Under the pieces are notes generated by a model. It saw only the letters and a program-made list of their open reading frames with translations, searched no databases and was not told the origin of the DNA. Below are positions 6,341-22,535 of a stretch of DNA of 25,800 nucleotides, piece by piece. A program made the translations under genes and the position numbers. Every line of letters begins with the position of its first letter. The first letter of the stretch is position 1. Origin of the DNA: a virus; IMG/VR virus record IMGVR_UViG_3300042368_002229, positions 1 through 25,800 of that record; one strand, 5' to 3'.

Positions 6341-7036
6341 TCAGAAATATGTCTTAAATTCTAAGAAGCTATAAATGGCTGATGGTGGAGCGGTAACAAT
6401 TCCTACAGGAGGGTAAGTTTCATCAATTCTAGAAGTTGATAGTTTTCCATCAATGCCGCAAAATAAAATGCTATTCAAAGCATAAGAAGCAGAAGTATCA
6501 AATTGATCGGTAGCAGCAATAATTTTACTGGTCCAAACTGTAATTCTACCCGTACCTTCGGTAGAATTTTCTCCTGGAATTCCTGGAACTTGATAGCTGT
6601 ATCGAACTACAACCCTAACAGAATCAAATACGCCGCTATTTGTAGAGCTATAGTTTAAAGGGGTTCCAGCGGGAACTGTAATAACACCATTTCTAGCATT
6701 AAGGACTACCAATTCTGGAGTACATACAAATGAATTAGGGTAAATGTTAGCATTCTCTAATTCATATTTTAAATCAATGGGAGTAACGTAAGTAGAGCCT
6801 GATAATGTGGGAATGGGACAGGTAATAATGCAAACTTCATCTACTTTAGCGGTAGAAAAGCTAGTTTTCTTAACATCATCAATAATTCCAATAGGGCTCA
6901 ATCCATCAGAAACACCGCAAACAACTTGATTTCCATAAACTTTTAGTTGGGCAATCATTCCGGGTTCAAATTCGGAATTAGGATCGACCAGCCAAGAATA
7001 TGGAAGGCTGTTATTGGTGTGTAGGATTCTTAACAT
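6341..7036 (-). CDS. Decoration-like beta-rich protein, long paralogue
   Basis: 231 aa and almost entirely beta-rich, with few Lys/Glu helices. The N-terminal third (about 1-75) matches the short paralogue downstream (PGMIAQL, VCGVSDG, PIGIIDD), and the last 50 residues match its second half (LFCGIDGKLS, VGIVTAP). Between them is an insert of about 100 residues with alternating hydrophobic residues (for example VRVVVRYSYQVPG), suggestive of an extra beta-sandwich or surface loop. A capsid decoration or head-surface protein is the best guess. The start at 7036 lacks an SD (TATAGTTAAAC precedes the ATG); the next internal Met would lose the conserved N-terminus, so 7036 is kept. Confidence 0.8.
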   Translation of the reverse strand: MLRILHTNNSLPYSWLVDPNSEFEPGMIAQLKVYGNQVVCGVSDGLSPIGIIDDVKKTSFSTAKVDEVCIITCPIPTLSGSTYVTPIDLKYELENANIYPNSFVCTPELVVLNARNGVITVPAGTPLNYSSTNSGVFDSVRVVVRYSYQVPGIPGENSTEGTGRITVWTSKIIAATDQFDTSASYALNSILFCGIDGKLSTSRIDETYPPVGIVTAPPSAIYSFLEFKTYF

Positions 7037-7705: not shown

Positions 7706-7897
7706 TTAGAATTTAGAAGATAGCTTTTCCATTAGTTTTGTTAATTTTTTAGAATATTTTGGTTTATCAGCCAAATCAAAACATTTAGCGGCTTCATTTA
7801 AGCAGCGTAAAGCAACTGTTAGTTTTAAATCAGAAGACTCTAGTTGATGTTCTGAATTTAATTTTTCCATCATTTCTAAAGCTAAATCATCTTTCAT
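7706..7897 (-). CDS. Small helical protein (63 aa)
   Basis: 63 aa from ATG at 7897. A longer frame to 7912 exists, but the 7897 start has a strong SD (GGGAGG, about 7 nt before ATG) and forms an ATGA overlap with the stop of the upstream gene, so it is preferred. The protein is two or three amphipathic helices; LNEAAKCFDLADKPKYSKKL is a diverged version of the helical module found in its neighbours. It contains no other recognisable signature. Confidence 0.75.
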   Translation of the reverse strand: MKDDLALEMMEKLNSEHQLESSDLKLTVALRCLNEAAKCFDLADKPKYSKKLTKLMEKLSSKF

Positions 7898-8898
7898 ACT
7901 TCGTCCTCCCAAGCAAATCCAGTATCTAAGGCATCAAGTGCATGATGCATGTCTTTCAAATCTTCATCTTCTTCGCCACTGTCTTCTTCGTCCATCTCTT
8001 CGAACTCATCCATCTCTTCGTCCATTTCAGCATCTTCTTCTTTTAATTCCTCAAGCTCCTCATCTTCAGAGGATTCCTCTAACAAAGACTCAATTTCATG
8101 CATACAATCAAGAAGCTCCATAACTTCTTCTTCATCAAAACCTTCTTCATCTTCTAAAATTTCATCAAGTTGTTCTTTGCAGTCTTTGAGCAATACTAAG
8201 AGTTCTTCCCTGGACATGTCTTCTTCATCAGAGAAATCTTCGCCGTTATCTTCTTGAGTTTCTTCTACTGCCTCTTCGGATTCGTCCAACTCTTCTTCGT
8301 CATCTTTATCTTCATCGTCTGCTGCAAATTCATCAGGTGAGCCCATATACTCTCTTAAACTTGGATTGTTTTCATATTTACCCTTCCAATAACTAGGAGA
8401 TTCGGGCTCGATCATTGAAAGACTTTCTTCTGCACTTTCTTCTGCAGGTGTAGATTTAGAAGGACTTTTTTGGAGTGATCTGAAAAAATCTTCTAAATCA
8501 TCTGCATTAGAAGAGTCCATTTCAGATAATATTTCATCTGCTAATTCTACAGATTCTTCTGCTTCTTTTAATAATTTATTAGATGCAATTAGTAATAAAG
8601 AAGCTGCCTTATCAAATCCTTGAACGTCTAATTCTTCAGATGTTTCAAGAATCATATTAAACATTTCATTTGCAGATTTTGATTTCATATCGTTGCAGCT
8701 GGAGCAATCGCTAGAACATTTTGTTCCTGCTTTTCTGCATTTGCAACCCTGTCCACAATCGCAATCTGCCCCGCATTCAGAACAGCAAGATGCTTTAACT
8801 TTTTTGGCTTTCTTGGCAGCAGTTTTACCAAAACCAAAAGATGGATTGGAAATTAAAGAATCCATTTCAGCAGCAACTAAATTACTAATTTTTTTCAT
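7894..8898 (-). CDS. Metallothionein-like Cys cluster fused to a very acidic tail
   Basis: 334 aa; AGGGA lies 6 nt before ATG at 8898. After a basic Lys/Ala stretch (25-36) come ten cysteines in 31 residues: C38, C39, C42, C46, C48, C52, C54, C61, C65, C68, including CDC and CKC, the C-x-C spacing typical of metallothioneins. Residues about 76-112 carry the helical module (LDVQGFDKAASLLLIASNKL). From about 195 to 330 nearly every other residue is Asp or Glu, with a hydrophobic ending (LDALDTGFAWEDEV). The acidic tail resembles DNA-mimic or scaffold-type sequences. Metal binding is inferred from Cys spacing only. No known phage family is recognised with this combination. It is the third gene downstream of the core-protein terminator. 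Confidence 0.85.
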   Translation of the reverse strand: MKKISNLVAAEMDSLISNPSFGFGKTAAKKAKKVKASCCSECGADCDCGQGCKCRKAGTKCSSDCSSCNDMKSKSANEMFNMILETSEELDVQGFDKAASLLLIASNKLLKEAEESVELADEILSEMDSSNADDLEDFFRSLQKSPSKSTPAEESAEESLSMIEPESPSYWKGKYENNPSLREYMGSPDEFAADDEDKDDEEELDESEEAVEETQEDNGEDFSDEEDMSREELLVLLKDCKEQLDEILEDEEGFDEEEVMELLDCMHEIESLLEESSEDEELEELKEEDAEMDEEMDEFEEMDEEDSGEEDEDLKDMHHALDALDTGFAWEDEV

Positions 8899-9274: not shown

Positions 9275-11764
9275 TCAATATTTGCGGTTAGCAAAAGCTG
9301 CTGCAAATTCTGTGACAAGATCATTTGATTCGGTTGAAGCCGTTGCAATGAGTTCTTCGCTCATTAAACCAATTTGTGGCATTGCATAAGATGCGTTGCG
9401 TGTCATTGGTGTACGTTCAACGTGTTTCTTCATGGATTCAAAACCTGCGTCGTTGAAGCTCATGAGTTCATCAACTTGTTCTTTGATAGCATGTTTGTCA
9501 CGTCCGATGAGACCTTTGGTTGCCATTTCGTTAGCAAGGTCATAGGCGCGAGCAATTTTAACACGGAATGTTTCCATGTTTTCTGCTTTTTTAGCTTGAG
9601 CATGTTCTGAAGTTAATTCTGCTGCAAATTCTTTGCTAGCTTTATCTTTGGATTGACCGTAGAAGTCTTTCCAGTATTTAACTGCAGTTGCATCAAGACC
9701 TGCTTTAACGAGTTGATCAACTTCAGATGCTTCGATACGACCGGCTGTAACAAGTTTCTGGATATCTTCTGCTGCTTTCTTGGTTTTTGCAGAAACTTCT
9801 TTTGTTGCTACTTCATGGGTGGCTTCAGCAACTTCTTCGAGAGTTTCTACTTTGGCTCCTTCGCCTTTCATTCCTGAAAGAACTGGACCGCCTTTACCGT
9901 GTGCGTCTTGAAGAATTTTGCTGAACTGCATTGCTTTAGCAGCTTGTTTTGCACGATATGCTGCGCGACCTTCTTTGGTGGTAAGGTCATCTGAGGCAAG
10001 TGCAGCTTTGGCGTCTTCTGCGTTTTGGAATTCCATAGTTTTTCCTGATTTATCTGTTACTTTAACGGGACCATGATGAACGTCATCAGCTGCATCGTCT
10101 GAATCCATCATTGCAAGGATATCATCAACTGAAAGTTCATCGCCTTTATCCATGTCCATCATATGATGTTTATCCATCATGTGATCTGCGCCCATCATAT
10201 GATCTTTATCCATCATGTGATGCATGTCTTTTTTGCTCATGTGGTCCTTTGCTGCTCCATCATCTGCTAATGATGTTGGGTTATATGGTTGTGGCTTTGC
10301 GGTTGGTGCAGATGTGCCAGTAACTGCGCCTACCATTTTCAAAACTGCTTCAAGTTCTTTTTTAGCAGCGGGGGAGGCGGTTGGGCTGGCTAACATTTTT
10401 TGTAACTCAGCAAAAGATCTTGAGGCGGGTTTTGGTGCGCTTGATGTAATTTTATCTTCTGGTAATTTTACATTTTGTGCAACTTTAACCATGCGAACTT
10501 CTTGTTTTGCTTGTTTGACAAGTACTTCTGTTGAAGAAGCATATTTGCTAAATGCGCTCATAAGAGTGTATGCATCGGCAATAACTTCGCGTGCTGCTGC
10601 TTTGCTTTCTGCAACTGTATCTAGTACTTCAGCAGAAGCGTTCTTTACAAGAACTTGTCTTGCAAGTCTAAGTTCATCAATAACGCCAGCTAATTTAACA
10701 GATGTTTCTTTCATTGCTGAAAGAATTGTTCTGCCAAGTTTTTTCTGCATTGCCATGAGAGAAGCTGTTGTTGGAGATAATGCAGGTGATTGTGCAAGAC
10801 CTTCAAGTTCAGGAGTTGGTGATTCTGCAGCTTTTTCAGTGAGAAGTGCTTCTACACCTTTGCGAAGATCTGCGTGGAGTTCTTCGAGTTTGTCAAGTAA
10901 TCCAGGAAGGTCTTTAGCTGGGTCTCCAGATACGCCTGCTGCTGGTTTTTCTGCTGGCTCTTCGCCCATTTCAGGAAGTTCTGGCATTTCTGGCATAGCT
11001 AAATCTGCTGGAGCAGGAGCTGCTGGAGCGGCTGGTGCTGCGGGAGCAGGTGCAGCCTGAGCGGATTTGTACATGCTGGCAACTTTTTCTAGACCATTGC
11101 TGCGGATTTTTGCAATTAATGAACGACCAAAGCCTTCATTTGCAACGCTGTCATAAAGTGCAACTGTGCGACCGGCAGTGATTTCATTAACACTTGCTGA
11201 GAATACAAGTTTTTTGTCTGCAAATACTTCCCAACGTGAATTAGCAAGATCGTCATTGCCATTTGCAGAAGCTGCTTTTAAGAATCTAGCGGTGAGTTTT
11301 GCGCGAGAAAGCATTTGCTTCTTTTCTAGATCTTTGGGGAAAAGACCATCAACGGCACCTGTATCTGGGAATGGAGGAGCGCCTACCATTTGTTTATCCT
11401 GAGTGTTGCGGATTTTATCTGCATCTTCTTTTGGATATGTTTGTGGTTCGTTAGCTCCACCGCCACCTTGGAAGTAAGCTTGCTTTTTAGCAAGATTTGC
11501 TTTTGCAGCTTCTAATGCTGCTTGACGACGAATTGAACGCATTTCTTCTTCTGCTAAACGTTGTAATCTGCGTTTGCGTGCTTCTTCTGTTTCGCCAAAA
11601 GATTCATAACCAGGGTGCATTCCATCAACTGGACCGGTGTTCATTTGACCGACCATTTGTTTATCTTGGGTATTACGAACTTTTTCGGCATCTTCTTTTG
11701 GATATGTTTGTGGCTCGTTCATTCCGCCGCCACCTTGAAAATAAGCCTTTTTCTGAGTTGTCAT
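9275..11764 (-). CDS. Nested in-frame scaffold/core protein (829 aa) from an internal start
   Basis: Met368 of the 1196-aa frame is preceded by TAAGGATGAACAA directly before ATG (AAGGA at 11772-11776, 7-nt spacer), a better ribosome-binding site than many true starts here and nearly the same as that of the parent gene (AAGGATGATAA). By eye, codon choice changes around this point: downstream Arg is often CGT/CGC, with AAC, CAC and TTC frequent, whereas the protease part favours AGA/CGA, AAT and CAT. That is what an independently and highly translated product would show. The plan matches lambda C/Nu3, where scaffold is made from an in-frame start inside the protease gene. The product would be the internal scaffold, later digested. 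Not proven from sequence alone; the full-length fusion may also be made. Confidence 0.65.
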   Translation of the reverse strand: MTTQKKAYFQGGGGMNEPQTYPKEDAEKVRNTQDKQMVGQMNTGPVDGMHPGYESFGETEEARKRRLQRLAEEEMRSIRRQAALEAAKANLAKKQAYFQGGGGANEPQTYPKEDADKIRNTQDKQMVGAPPFPDTGAVDGLFPKDLEKKQMLSRAKLTARFLKAASANGNDDLANSRWEVFADKKLVFSASVNEITAGRTVALYDSVANEGFGRSLIAKIRSNGLEKVASMYKSAQAAPAPAAPAAPAAPAPADLAMPEMPELPEMGEEPAEKPAAGVSGDPAKDLPGLLDKLEELHADLRKGVEALLTEKAAESPTPELEGLAQSPALSPTTASLMAMQKKLGRTILSAMKETSVKLAGVIDELRLARQVLVKNASAEVLDTVAESKAAAREVIADAYTLMSAFSKYASSTEVLVKQAKQEVRMVKVAQNVKLPEDKITSSAPKPASRSFAELQKMLASPTASPAAKKELEAVLKMVGAVTGTSAPTAKPQPYNPTSLADDGAAKDHMSKKDMHHMMDKDHMMGADHMMDKHHMMDMDKGDELSVDDILAMMDSDDAADDVHHGPVKVTDKSGKTMEFQNAEDAKAALASDDLTTKEGRAAYRAKQAAKAMQFSKILQDAHGKGGPVLSGMKGEGAKVETLEEVAEATHEVATKEVSAKTKKAAEDIQKLVTAGRIEASEVDQLVKAGLDATAVKYWKDFYGQSKDKASKEFAAELTSEHAQAKKAENMETFRVKIARAYDLANEMATKGLIGRDKHAIKEQVDELMSFNDAGFESMKKHVERTPMTRNASYAMPQIGLMSEELIATASTESNDLVTEFAAAFANRKY

Positions 11765-12865
11765 TTGTTCATCCTTATTAAAACTGGAAAGTTTGTTAAT
11801 TCTTTCAAATATTGTGTCTAATTTATCAGAAATGTTTTTTAGTGCATATTCTGAAGATTTATCAGAAGCTTCTTTTCCTAATTGATTAGGTGAATTTTCT
11901 GATGGTTTGTCTTTTACTTCTTTCAATAATTCTTCAATTTGTGCTTTTAATGCACCTAATTGCTCTGTAGCTTCTTCTAAAGAAGATACCAATCCTTCCA
12001 TCTTGCCAGAAGTTTCTGGTTTTGATGTCTCTGATTCAGATGATTCTGATTCAGAGGCTTCGGGATCTTTTTTCAAGAATTCTTGTTCTTTTGCTTCAAC
12101 ATATTTAGCAATGCTATTAGCAGCTGCTATAATTGTTTTAATTTTTGCCTTTGGATCGGCACCATTTACAACAATGGATAATTCAATTGGGTTTAAATCC
12201 AAATTGACTTCACCATAACATGATTTATTTTTCATATGGTTACAGAAATCGGATTCTGTACGAGCCACATTGCCACAATCATAGCAAACTGCTTTGCCAA
12301 CACCTGTTCCCATAGAAACAGAGGCTGCATAACCAGTTGAAACTTTTCGTGCTAAATCTGGATAGTTCTTTTTATCCAAAGCACACAATGCAACTACTCT
12401 TTTTAATTTGTGATCATAATAAGTATCGACAATTAATCCTCGAATCATGTCAACAGAAGAGCTTTTATGATCTAAGCAAAGAGGTTTGCCAACCCATTTT
12501 TTATGAGCAGAAATAAGCTCTTGGGCGGGGAAGATATCAGAATTATTATTTTTATATGGTCTTATACTTGGATCATTGCTTTTCCAAATAACTCCATCGC
12601 CTTTTTTCTCCCACCAAACTTTAACGGGTTCGCCAGAAGCTGTAACTTTTAAGCTGCCATCTTCATTGATAGCTGAATGCTCAGCGGCGTGCATCATTAC
12701 TGCGCTAAAATAAAGAAAATCATCTCCTTTTGGAGCAATAATTTTTAATTCTTTGGCAATTTTTTCAAATTTATTTTGAATCTCTGGATCGGATAAAACG
12801 CTTTCAACGTCTTGAATATCCGATGCTGTAATTGAAATAGATTCACCAATTTTTACTAACGACAT
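9275..12865 (-). CDS. Prohead protease fused to a long scaffold/core region (1196 aa)
   Basis: AAGGA lies 7 nt before ATG at 12865. Residues about 50-245 look like a capsid maturation (prohead) protease: LCLDHKSS holds the likely catalytic His133 and STGYAASVSMG the likely Ser (S183 or S185), followed by a zinc-finger-like insert C194-x2-C197-x10-C208-x-H210-x5-C216 and ending LSIVVNGADP (229-238). Such 'VSMG + CxxCG + C.H' proteases occur in tailed-phage head operons. Residues 260-365 are a Ser/Glu linker and coiled coil. From 368 on come two near-identical repeats, a WEVFADKKLVFSASVNEI domain (545-600), an Ala/Pro linker (604-620), long helices, a His/Met-rich patch (875-905) and a helical C-terminus. 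The C-terminal part is helical like a scaffold, not an HK97 capsid fold. Typical proteases of this class are far shorter. Confidence 0.82.
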   Translation of the reverse strand: MSLVKIGESISITASDIQDVESVLSDPEIQNKFEKIAKELKIIAPKGDDFLYFSAVMMHAAEHSAINEDGSLKVTASGEPVKVWWEKKGDGVIWKSNDPSIRPYKNNNSDIFPAQELISAHKKWVGKPLCLDHKSSSVDMIRGLIVDTYYDHKLKRVVALCALDKKNYPDLARKVSTGYAASVSMGTGVGKAVCYDCGNVARTESDFCNHMKNKSCYGEVNLDLNPIELSIVVNGADPKAKIKTIIAAANSIAKYVEAKEQEFLKKDPEASESESSESETSKPETSGKMEGLVSSLEEATEQLGALKAQIEELLKEVKDKPSENSPNQLGKEASDKSSEYALKNISDKLDTIFERINKLSSFNKDEQMTTQKKAYFQGGGGMNEPQTYPKEDAEKVRNTQDKQMVGQMNTGPVDGMHPGYESFGETEEARKRRLQRLAEEEMRSIRRQAALEAAKANLAKKQAYFQGGGGANEPQTYPKEDADKIRNTQDKQMVGAPPFPDTGAVDGLFPKDLEKKQMLSRAKLTARFLKAASANGNDDLANSRWEVFADKKLVFSASVNEITAGRTVALYDSVANEGFGRSLIAKIRSNGLEKVASMYKSAQAAPAPAAPAAPAAPAPADLAMPEMPELPEMGEEPAEKPAAGVSGDPAKDLPGLLDKLEELHADLRKGVEALLTEKAAESPTPELEGLAQSPALSPTTASLMAMQKKLGRTILSAMKETSVKLAGVIDELRLARQVLVKNASAEVLDTVAESKAAAREVIADAYTLMSAFSKYASSTEVLVKQAKQEVRMVKVAQNVKLPEDKITSSAPKPASRSFAELQKMLASPTASPAAKKELEAVLKMVGAVTGTSAPTAKPQPYNPTSLADDGAAKDHMSKKDMHHMMDKDHMMGADHMMDKHHMMDMDKGDELSVDDILAMMDSDDAADDVHHGPVKVTDKSGKTMEFQNAEDAKAALASDDLTTKEGRAAYRAKQAAKAMQFSKILQDAHGKGGPVLSGMKGEGAKVETLEEVAEATHEVATKEVSAKTKKAAEDIQKLVTAGRIEASEVDQLVKAGLDATAVKYWKDFYGQSKDKASKEFAAELTSEHAQAKKAENMETFRVKIARAYDLANEMATKGLIGRDKHAIKEQVDELMSFNDAGFESMKKHVERTPMTRNASYAMPQIGLMSEELIATASTESNDLVTEFAAAFANRKY
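10151..10243 (-). repeat. His/Met-rich repeat tract (DHMM/HHMMD) in the core protein
   Basis: Residues about 875-905 of the fusion protein repeat short units such as DHMSKKDMHHMMDKDHMM and GADHMMDKHHMMDMD. At DNA level the words CATCATATGAT and CATCATGTGAT recur with 30-45 bp periodicity, so the tract probably grew by internal duplication. His and Met side chains could bind soft or borderline metals such as Cu, Ni or Zn; this is inference. Confidence 0.75.
11381..11479 (-). repeat. Second copy of the AYFQGGGG repeat in the core protein
   Basis: Residues 463-495 (AYFQGGGGANEP ... TQDKQMVG) repeat residues 374-406 with only a few conservative changes. Weaker similarity continues for about 12 residues (TGAVDGLFP against TGPVDGMHP). 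Copies are 89 residues (267 bp) apart. Confidence 0.9.
11648..11746 (-). repeat. First copy of the AYFQGGGG repeat in the core protein
   Basis: Residues 374-406 (AYFQGGGGMNEP ... TQDKQMVG), starting six residues after the internal start Met368, so this copy forms the very N-terminus of the nested product. The matching copy is at 11381-11479. Near-identity at protein level points to recent duplication or strong constraint. Confidence 0.9.
11765..11776 (-). promoter_or_regulatory. Internal ribosome-binding site for the nested core protein
   Basis: Minus strand reads AAGGATGAACAA then ATG. AAGGA with a 7-nt spacer matches the pattern at the starts of the genes at 12865 and 14962 (AAGGATGA in each), which argues that it is functional rather than chance. 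Confidence 0.65.
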
Positions 12866-12920
12866 TTATCATCCTTGTTTTAAATAAATATTTTCCTGAA
12901 TATACAAATTTAGCCATATA

Positions 12921-21221: not shown

Positions 21222-22535
21222 ATGAAAAAAATATACATACTAGACACTTCAGTACTCGTTCAAAATCCATCGTGCCTAAACGAAATATCAAATTCGACAT
21301 TAATCTTGCCAATTACTGTGCTGGAAGAGCTTGATAAATTAAAATCTTATAGGGAAGAAGTTGGCAAAAACGCCAGAATGTTAATCAAACAAATTGATAA
21401 ACTTTCTTCTGAAGGTGATTTCCAAAGTGGAATAAATCTTCCATCTAATTCGATATTAAAAGTTGATGTTTCTGATGAAGGCTTCATAGGAAAAGATGAA
21501 ACCTATGGAGACAATAAAATCTTAGCATGTGCCTTAAAATATAAAAAAGGCAAAACTGTTCCTACTCTTTTATCTGCAGATCTTAATTTAAGAATCAGAG
21601 CAAAGGCATTAGGAATAAAAGCTGAAGATTATATTGAAAAGGGAGCAAAAACTTCAGAGTTTTATTCTGGAATTGCTAAAATTCACCACGAAGATGCTTT
21701 TCAAGAATTAATGGAAAAAAGTTCTTTTAATCCAAAAAACTACAATATAAAATTGCTACCAAATGAATTTGCTTTGTTTGTAGATGAAAATGGATACGAA
21801 CTAGGATTGGCTCGAAAAGTATCTGATGACAAAGTAAAGCTTGTAAAAAAACAAAGTGTCTGGGGAATTCATCCCAGAAGCAATGAACAAGCATGTCTTG
21901 TAGATCTATTAATGGACTCTAGTCTTCCATTAGTTACTGTTATGGGTCAAGCAGGTTCCGGTAAAACGTTGGTAGCCTTAGCAGCAGCACTAGAGCTGGT
22001 GCTAGAAAAACAAAAATATGATAAGTTAATTATTTATCGCCCAGTAGAAGTTATTGGAAAAGAACTTGGCTATATGCCAGGAAATAAATATGAGAAAATG
22101 GAACCATACTTTCAAGCAATCTTTGATTCTTTTGAAGCCTTGCTAGCTAGTAATACTGGCGGAAAAGATAAAAATAAAACTACTTTAACCTGGCGAGATA
22201 ATTTAGAATATTTTATTAAAAAAGATAAAATAGAACTTGATGTTCTTGCTTATGCTCGTGGTAGAAGCCTTGCAAATGCGCTCATTATTATTGATGAGGC
22301 TCAAAATTTACCATCTAGCGCTGCCAAAACATTACTAACTAGATTGGGCGCAGGTAGCAAAATTGTATGTACTGGCGATATTGAACAAATTGACGTAAAT
22401 AATTTAGATGCTATAAATAACACTATCAGCACAATAGTAGAAGCTTTTAAAGGGTCTAAATTGGCTGGTCATATCTCTCTAGTTAAGGGAGAGCGTTCAG
22501 AACTTGCTAATGAGGCAATTAAATTACTAACGTGA
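21222..22535 (+). CDS. phoH: PIN-PhoH fusion ATPase
   Basis: 437 aa. N-terminal PIN domain (about 1-135): YILDTSVLV with Asp8, LEELDKL with Glu35/Glu36, GDNK with Asp97 and LLSADLNLRIRAKA with Asp120, the acidic residues of a metal-dependent RNase. C-terminal PhoH ATPase (about 215-437): GQAGSGKT Walker A (242-249), LIIIDEAQ Walker B (354-361) and TGDIEQID (384-391). Two-domain PIN-PhoH (PhoH2-like) proteins bind and unwind or cleave RNA; phoH genes are frequent auxiliary genes in phages, their role uncertain. It is the only plus-strand gene, placed antisense between terL and the portal, with its own promoter and terminator. There is no SD before ATG at 21222; the leader is AT-rich with a five-codon ATG...TAA frame ending at the ATG. 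All key residues are present. Confidence 0.93.
   Translation: MKKIYILDTSVLVQNPSCLNEISNSTLILPITVLEELDKLKSYREEVGKNARMLIKQIDKLSSEGDFQSGINLPSNSILKVDVSDEGFIGKDETYGDNKILACALKYKKGKTVPTLLSADLNLRIRAKALGIKAEDYIEKGAKTSEFYSGIAKIHHEDAFQELMEKSSFNPKNYNIKLLPNEFALFVDENGYELGLARKVSDDKVKLVKKQSVWGIHPRSNEQACLVDLLMDSSLPLVTVMGQAGSGKTLVALAAALELVLEKQKYDKLIIYRPVEVIGKELGYMPGNKYEKMEPYFQAIFDSFEALLASNTGGKDKNKTTLTWRDNLEYFIKKDKIELDVLAYARGRSLANALIIIDEAQNLPSSAAKTLLTRLGAGSKIVCTGDIEQIDVNNLDAINNTISTIVEAFKGSKLAGHISLVKGERSELANEAIKLLT

Follow-up and report, generated by a model that had tools for sequence, protein, structure and literature searches.

A candidate internal start for a proposed head-scaffold core within the protease gene of uncultivated giant phages

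Described protease–scaffold genes and the locus compared with them

Phage lambda gene C encodes a head protease whose C-terminal part is the scaffold, and this scaffold, Nu3, is produced on its own as well, by initiation at an internal start in the same frame. Interactions between C and Nu3 have been described in lambda (PMC3224144), and phage Mu likewise has an in-frame scaffold start within its protease gene (PMC4378225), while the start in ORF 27 of the Mu-like Pseudomonas aeruginosa phage PaMx73, Val177, was predicted only; Mu and PaMx73 differ from the phage analyzed here in being small temperate phages unrelated to it. Herpesvirus UL26/UL26.5 comprises a protease–scaffold precursor plus an in-frame nested scaffold with a common C-terminus (PMC2949831). 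Phage T4 has its protease (gene 21) and core scaffold (gene 22) adjoining the major capsid protein (MCP) gene, the copy numbers being about 100 for the protease and 576 for the scaffold (PMC5694885), and gene 21 has a second, unexplained start at Met45 giving an essential short form (PMC9026906); in T4, however, protease and scaffold are separate genes, and the second start lies inside the protease. No published nested protease–scaffold of giant phages was found in the openly accessible literature, to which the search was confined.

The sequences compared here were metagenomic, and the window, i.e., the whole stretch of DNA analyzed, was a 25.8-kb record of an uncultivated virus. The window displayed on its minus strand a terminase gene (PF05876), several small genes, a 1196-aa ORF, and further head-type genes; a portal-like protein on the same strand was assigned by eye, with no Pfam match. 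The 1196-aa ORF shared with the nested type of lambda C/Nu3 and Mu (i) an N-terminal head-maturation protease (PHROG 18299), (ii) a conserved in-frame internal start with its own RBS (72/72 loci and a synonymous null; see below), and (iii) a C-terminal part of scaffold-like character, mostly helical or disordered, with the capsid protein separate in relatives. It differed from lambda in giving no Pfam match to the lambda protease family and in having a far larger core without detectable homology to known scaffolds. The parts of the gene were as follows:

9275..12865, minus strand: full-length protease-core fusion, 1196 aa (ORF list and sequence)
12872..12876, minus strand: parental SD AAGGA, with a 6-nt spacer before ATG 12865-12863 (sequence)
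12224..12550, minus strand: head-maturation protease domain, aa 106-214 (PHROG 18299, PHROG 2774, phage G gp19 homologue, invariant columns)
12236..12286, minus strand: Cys/His knuckle C194-C197-C208-H210 (in 31 relatives, all three Cys were invariant and H210 almost so)
11765..12085, minus strand: acidic/coiled linker joining protease and core, aa 261-367 (highly variable in the alignment)
9275..11764, minus strand: candidate nested core/scaffold CDS, 829 aa (break in codon usage close to the start, MCP-like codons, mostly helical/disordered AF2 model)

The head-maturation protease was thus joined to the 829-aa core in one frame, and the two parts made up a single ORF in 70/70 relatives with enough upstream DNA. 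A split of protease and core by a stop codon was found in none of the relatives; L062 and L092 seemed unfused as their contigs end there. Protease aa 106-214 matched PHROG 18299 'head maturation protease' (E=1.6e-12) and PHROG 2774 (E=9.8e-17), and gp19 of phage G aligned with the same residues (tblastn E=2e-20). The marks of the phage G/actinophage protease family (PHROG 18299/2774), namely, a conserved His, a conserved Ser, and CxxC..CxH, were found in alignments and by tblastn; the invariant H133 and S184 are likely the catalytic pair, and the knuckle is likely a Zn site. The core had been described as fused to a zinc-finger-bearing protease, and the CxxC...CxH element was indeed present, but it was not special to this gene, being found also in the proteases of phages G and Arash and in actinophage fusions such as those of Finch and Myrna. 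Against solved prohead proteases (T4 gp21-type, herpes-protease-like fold), the window protease gave no Pfam match and no PDB sequence match, and a Foldseek search with a modest model (pLDDT 68) gave no match at E<0.001.

Inteins of 155-377 aa were present in the protease part in five lineages (L013, L017/L019, L066/L067, L070, and L081), all at one identical site after YKN[NS]N, and that of L017 matched Pfam Intein_splicing and LAGLIDADG. All of them lay before the nested start, so that synthesis of the core need not depend on their splicing.

Several neighboring genes were also of note. A PIN-PhoH ATPase gene (21222-22535, plus strand) lay on the opposite strand between the terminase and portal genes, and the gene of ribosomal protein S21 is reported to be placed in a similar way, on the opposite strand, in giant phages of other kinds (PMC9723584). 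The 334-aa product of 7894-8898 (minus strand) contained a Cys-rich cluster in its N-terminal part and a tail of acidic character (Glu/Asp/Ser) that was very long, and L017 had a 1289-aa ORF after a 90-aa gene at the expected place of this gene. The gene at 6341-7036 (minus strand; about 230 aa, apparently beta-rich) is possibly a capsid decoration protein gene, and most relatives had ORFs of comparable length in a corresponding position 3' of the protease. In L021 (9723-10409) and L015 (9693-10298), the gene directly 3' of the protease-core gene had capsid-like codon usage and may encode another highly expressed head protein.

The internal start and its conservation

The internal site TTTTAATAAGGATGAACAAATG was composed of an SD, the spacer TGAACAA (7 nt), and an in-frame ATG at codon 368:

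11772..11776, minus strand: internal SD AAGGA
11762..11764, minus strand: internal in-frame start codon ATG, Met368

The preliminary description had placed AAGGA, a 7-nt spacer, and ATG at 11764; these coordinates were exact, and the product from Met368 had 829 aa. It had also regarded the site as a copy of the parent gene's own RBS, which applied to the window sequence and its close kin, but the parental SD of other clades (e.g., CAGGGAGCTAATACGC) was unlike their nested SD (e.g., CAAGAGGAAAAT).

Relatives were collected from IMG/VR by a first search (21 loci) and by a core profile search (80 loci, mostly new), and 72 distinct loci were scored. In the first set, the Met was invariant (18/18) within an otherwise unalignable linker, and the SD was kept in 18/18 despite the differing residues before the Met (NKDEQ-M, NEDKK-M, KKEDIDK-M, KIQEEH-M, DKEPK-M, and QNEGK-M). 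Among twelve well-conserved Met columns (counting the ordinary start codon, which was left unscored for SD), the Met368 column was the only one with an SD throughout (18/18), the next best having 6/18. In the full set, an ATG with an SD of <= -5.4 kcal/mol, as calculated with an anti-SD that may not be that of the host, was present in 72/72 distinct loci, i.e., in every relative carrying the junction; for L006, the aligned Met (E -5.8) was used as the internal start in place of a neighboring Met. Of the remaining in-frame ATGs of these genes, 13% were preceded by an equally good SD, so the site in one sequence could be luck, but its conservation in 72/72 is not.

The SD was then set against a synonymous null in which the protein was fixed and codons were drawn at each gene's own frequencies. 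For 24 representatives of <65% identity, the mean chance of an SD was 0.29 per sequence versus 24/24 with an SD, giving a product of 10^-14.6, an optimistic figure in which kinship is ignored; in these representatives the SD was always built with a G-ending Lys or Glu codon (AAG/GAG). The product was used instead of an earlier Fisher test over 10 sequences (p=0.02) because the event is all-or-none with discrete p values. The mRNA was also open around the internal start: the 50 nt around the ATG folded at -1.9 kcal/mol versus -7.75 in flanking windows (weaker in 24/24), and the site was less structured than under a protein-preserving null in 24/28 (p=8e-4), part of the weak fold thus being due to amino-acid composition. 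The nested start was more open than the parental start (-1.8 versus -4.2), while the mean SD energies of 65 relatives (parental -6.3, nested -5.9; the anti-SD may not be that of the host) indicated that the nested SD was no stronger.

In close pairs, synonymous codons just before the ATG were conserved; between the window and L002, those at -20 to -1 were identical in 18/18 (64% overall). The reach of this conservation to codons -20 to -8 in close relatives could hide a promoter, and the nested product would then come mainly from a transcript of its own and not from internal initiation on the long mRNA. Herpesvirus UL26.5 has its own transcript, unlike the internal initiation proposed here. 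A promoter search covering the sigma-70 type, not phage-specific late promoters, gave no sigma-70-like promoter for a separate core mRNA on the minus strand just upstream of the internal start, inspection by eye of the listed upstream regions gave no shared motif besides the SD, and the upstream region encodes a coiled helix that may itself explain the conservation; a separate transcript is accordingly considered distinctly unlikely. From the conserved SD–ATG we strongly infer that the core would be translated independently from Met368.

Codon usage and the two proposed products

Codon usage along the window gene was best split at codon 393, 25 codons after Met368, with a maximum LLR of 50.6 that was reached in 0/500 permutations of codons among identical amino acids. 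From the N-terminal to the C-terminal part, CGT+CGC rose from 1/6 to 25/31, AAC from 5/19 to 12/22, ATC from 2/25 to 8/18, and CTT+CTC from 4/27 to 41/60. A shift near 11764 toward CGT/CGC, AAC, CAC, and TTC had been noted by eye; it was borne out for CGT/CGC and AAC, but the CAC and TTC shifts were small and involved few codons, and the CTT+CTC shift had been missed. The break was significant in 15/16 relatives, at positions from 16 codons before to 117 after the internal start: it lay 74-117 codons downstream in L005, L008, L015, and L021, was only moderately significant in L013 and some others, and was not significant in the exception, L016. The protease-core genes had a mean z of 3.6, while 15 other long ORFs had a mean z of 0.7 and never reached z >= 5. 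In 6/6 genomes for which the capsid gene had been located, core codons leaned toward those of the separate MCP gene, the protease part doing so less; within the window, the core was the most biased coding stretch, and no other gene shared its codon usage.

This break fits a core expressed at a higher level than the protease, which would require separate initiation or transcription. A possible excess of the short product over the long one is supported by the MCP-like codon usage; the nested SD being no stronger than the parental SD, a large excess would need other causes, e.g., the open mRNA. Two readings in which internal initiation plays little or no part bear on the same data. If the core were freed chiefly by self-cleavage of the protease in the linker, which is long and acidic, the case would resemble T4 gp21 and SPN3US gp245, both processed C-terminally (PMC9026906, PMC10052503), but cleavage gives a 1:1 ratio and explains neither the conserved SD–ATG nor the codon break, so that this reading is very unlikely. 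The other supposes no separate product at all, the SD-like element slowing ribosomes between domains and the codon break stemming from domain origins or folding needs: SD-like sequences do precede 13% of other in-frame ATGs by chance, and among portal genes, which are not known to contain internal starts, 15% were marked as having one by a predictor (PMC9430671). A ribosomal pause, however, could do without an ATG, whereas one with the spacing of a start was kept in 72/72, the codon shift toward the MCP gene recurred across deeply diverged relatives, and the mRNA at the site was open, leaving this reading barely credible.

The best explanation, which we hold to be probable, is one gene with two products, a protease-core fusion and a separately started core that is the proposed head scaffold. 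The upstream ATG would give the 1196-aa fusion, and the internal SD–ATG at codon 368 would give the 829-aa core alone, in larger amount. Many nested cores and fewer fusions would co-assemble in the prohead through the shared core, which would bring the protease inside; the protease would then cut the core, further head proteins, and itself, and the fragments would be gone by the time the head is filled with DNA. The copy ratio is presumed here, as are co-assembly and cleavage. The proposal of a separate 829-aa scaffold in the manner of lambda Nu3, already made in the preliminary description, was supported by both sequence checks suggested there, the conserved SD–ATG (72/72) and the codon break toward MCP usage; of the refuting outcomes named there, the two open to computation (loss of the SD/ATG in relatives and lack of a codon break) did not occur. 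New relative to lambda and Mu are the unrelated core, its occurrence in giant phages, its length of 829 aa, and the very deep conservation.

The core and its counterparts in other phages

The core displayed the following parts:

11609..11749, minus strand: first N-terminal repeat copy, AYFQGGGG.NEP..YPKED..R..DKQMVG..TGPVDG (alignment)
11339..11482, minus strand: second repeat copy, AYFQGGGG.NEP...DKQMVG.PPFP.TG.VDG (alignment)
11057..11335, minus strand: small alpha/beta domain, core aa 144-236 (AF2 blocks mostly of pLDDT 74-88)
9413..9571, minus strand: C-terminal helical motif common to phage G gp21 (core HMM, blastp, hhalign)

Both AYFQGGGG-type copies lay within the first 140 core residues, and the AF2 model (mean pLDDT 58) was mostly helical and partly disordered, with one alpha/beta domain. 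The core was ruled out as the MCP itself: relatives had a separate downstream MCP of T4/G type (E ~1e-84), and the AF2 model had no HK97 fold. This T4/phage-G-type MCP was a separate downstream gene in six relatives and was present in pieces in a seventh, and no MCP gene was found in the window or flanking loci. On the 301-kb L019 contig (L035-L037), the MCP gene was matched as three pieces lying apart, which suggests that this capsid gene is interrupted by introns or inteins.

Homologues of the core were sought at several levels. Core residues 1-195 and the last 171 had no tblastn match at E<1 in 50,697 phage records, no significant PHROG match was obtained, neither search thus revealing homology to T4 gp22, no detectable homology to characterized scaffolds was seen, and none to BcepSaruman gp84 was found; against solved or viral structures nothing was significant, phage G gp21 ranking 8th at E=0.08, which is suggestive only. 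From the helical/disordered character, the gene order, and the expression-type codons, we infer that the core is a head scaffold and not an internal protein staying in the head. The latter reading, an abundant inner-body or ejected protein kept in the virion with the protease fused for targeting, is unlikely: a length of 829 aa, a multidomain build, and a folded alpha/beta domain are unusual for a scaffold, and giant phages, phiKZ among them, have abundant internal proteins with extensive head-protein processing (PMC13282480), but the core is encoded after the portal and adjacent to the protease, as scaffolds are, its universal protease fusion matches the protease–scaffold genes of lambda, Mu, and herpesviruses, and the T4 internal proteins are separate genes.

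A 68-sequence core HMM searched against 1239 ORFs around named-phage proteases matched gp21 of Bacillus phage G at E=6.8e-7 (next 0.21), the match covering about 60 residues of the C-terminal motif (blastp 3e-4; hhalign 2.5e-4). Phage G had the order protease gp19, gp20, gp21, and then MCP gp27; it shared with the window the homologous protease gp19 and the core C-terminal motif in gp21, and its MCP was homologous to that of the window's relatives, but its protease (300 aa) and gp21 (486 aa) were separate genes with gp20 between them. The HMM match to gp21, two genes past gp19, thus places the C-terminal core motif in a separate gene in phage G.

Eight actinophages (Myrna gp97, Alice, Tonenili, Phabba, E3, Pupper, Stormageddon, and Finch) harbored a gene joining a homologous protease to a long C-terminal region, directly followed by a small gene plus the MCP gene, but the C-terminal region had no detectable homology to the window-family core. 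Their linkers contained an ATG just before an RNDQGE block, aligned in 7/8 with a nearby one in Finch, and preceded by SD-like AAAGGA, GAGGA, or AAGGAG. A codon break at this analogous start was ruled out as a general feature, being significant only in E3 and Finch, and the data are suggestive only of a nested-start arrangement in actinophages. Myrna gp97 (L025 7839-11474; others L038-L043) was annotated as a tape measure in one record, yet it is a head-protease fusion.

It may tentatively be proposed, at somewhat less than even confidence, that nested scaffold starts inside protease genes are ancient and general in the head module shared by phage G type, large actinophages (Myrna and Bxz1 type), and uncultivated giants, that the unit came apart in phage G, and that the core is the counterpart of the T4 gp22 scaffold, a counterpart that, according to a 2017 report, had been confirmed in no giant phage. 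Phage G gp21 and Myrna gp97 offer culturable surrogates, and the actinophages grow in the laboratory. The locus described here provides, in >70 loci, a candidate for the missing head scaffold of an uncultivated giant-phage group together with a proposed mechanism of protease targeting; gene callers give one 1196-aa protein and would thereby miss what may be among the most abundant proteins of the immature head.
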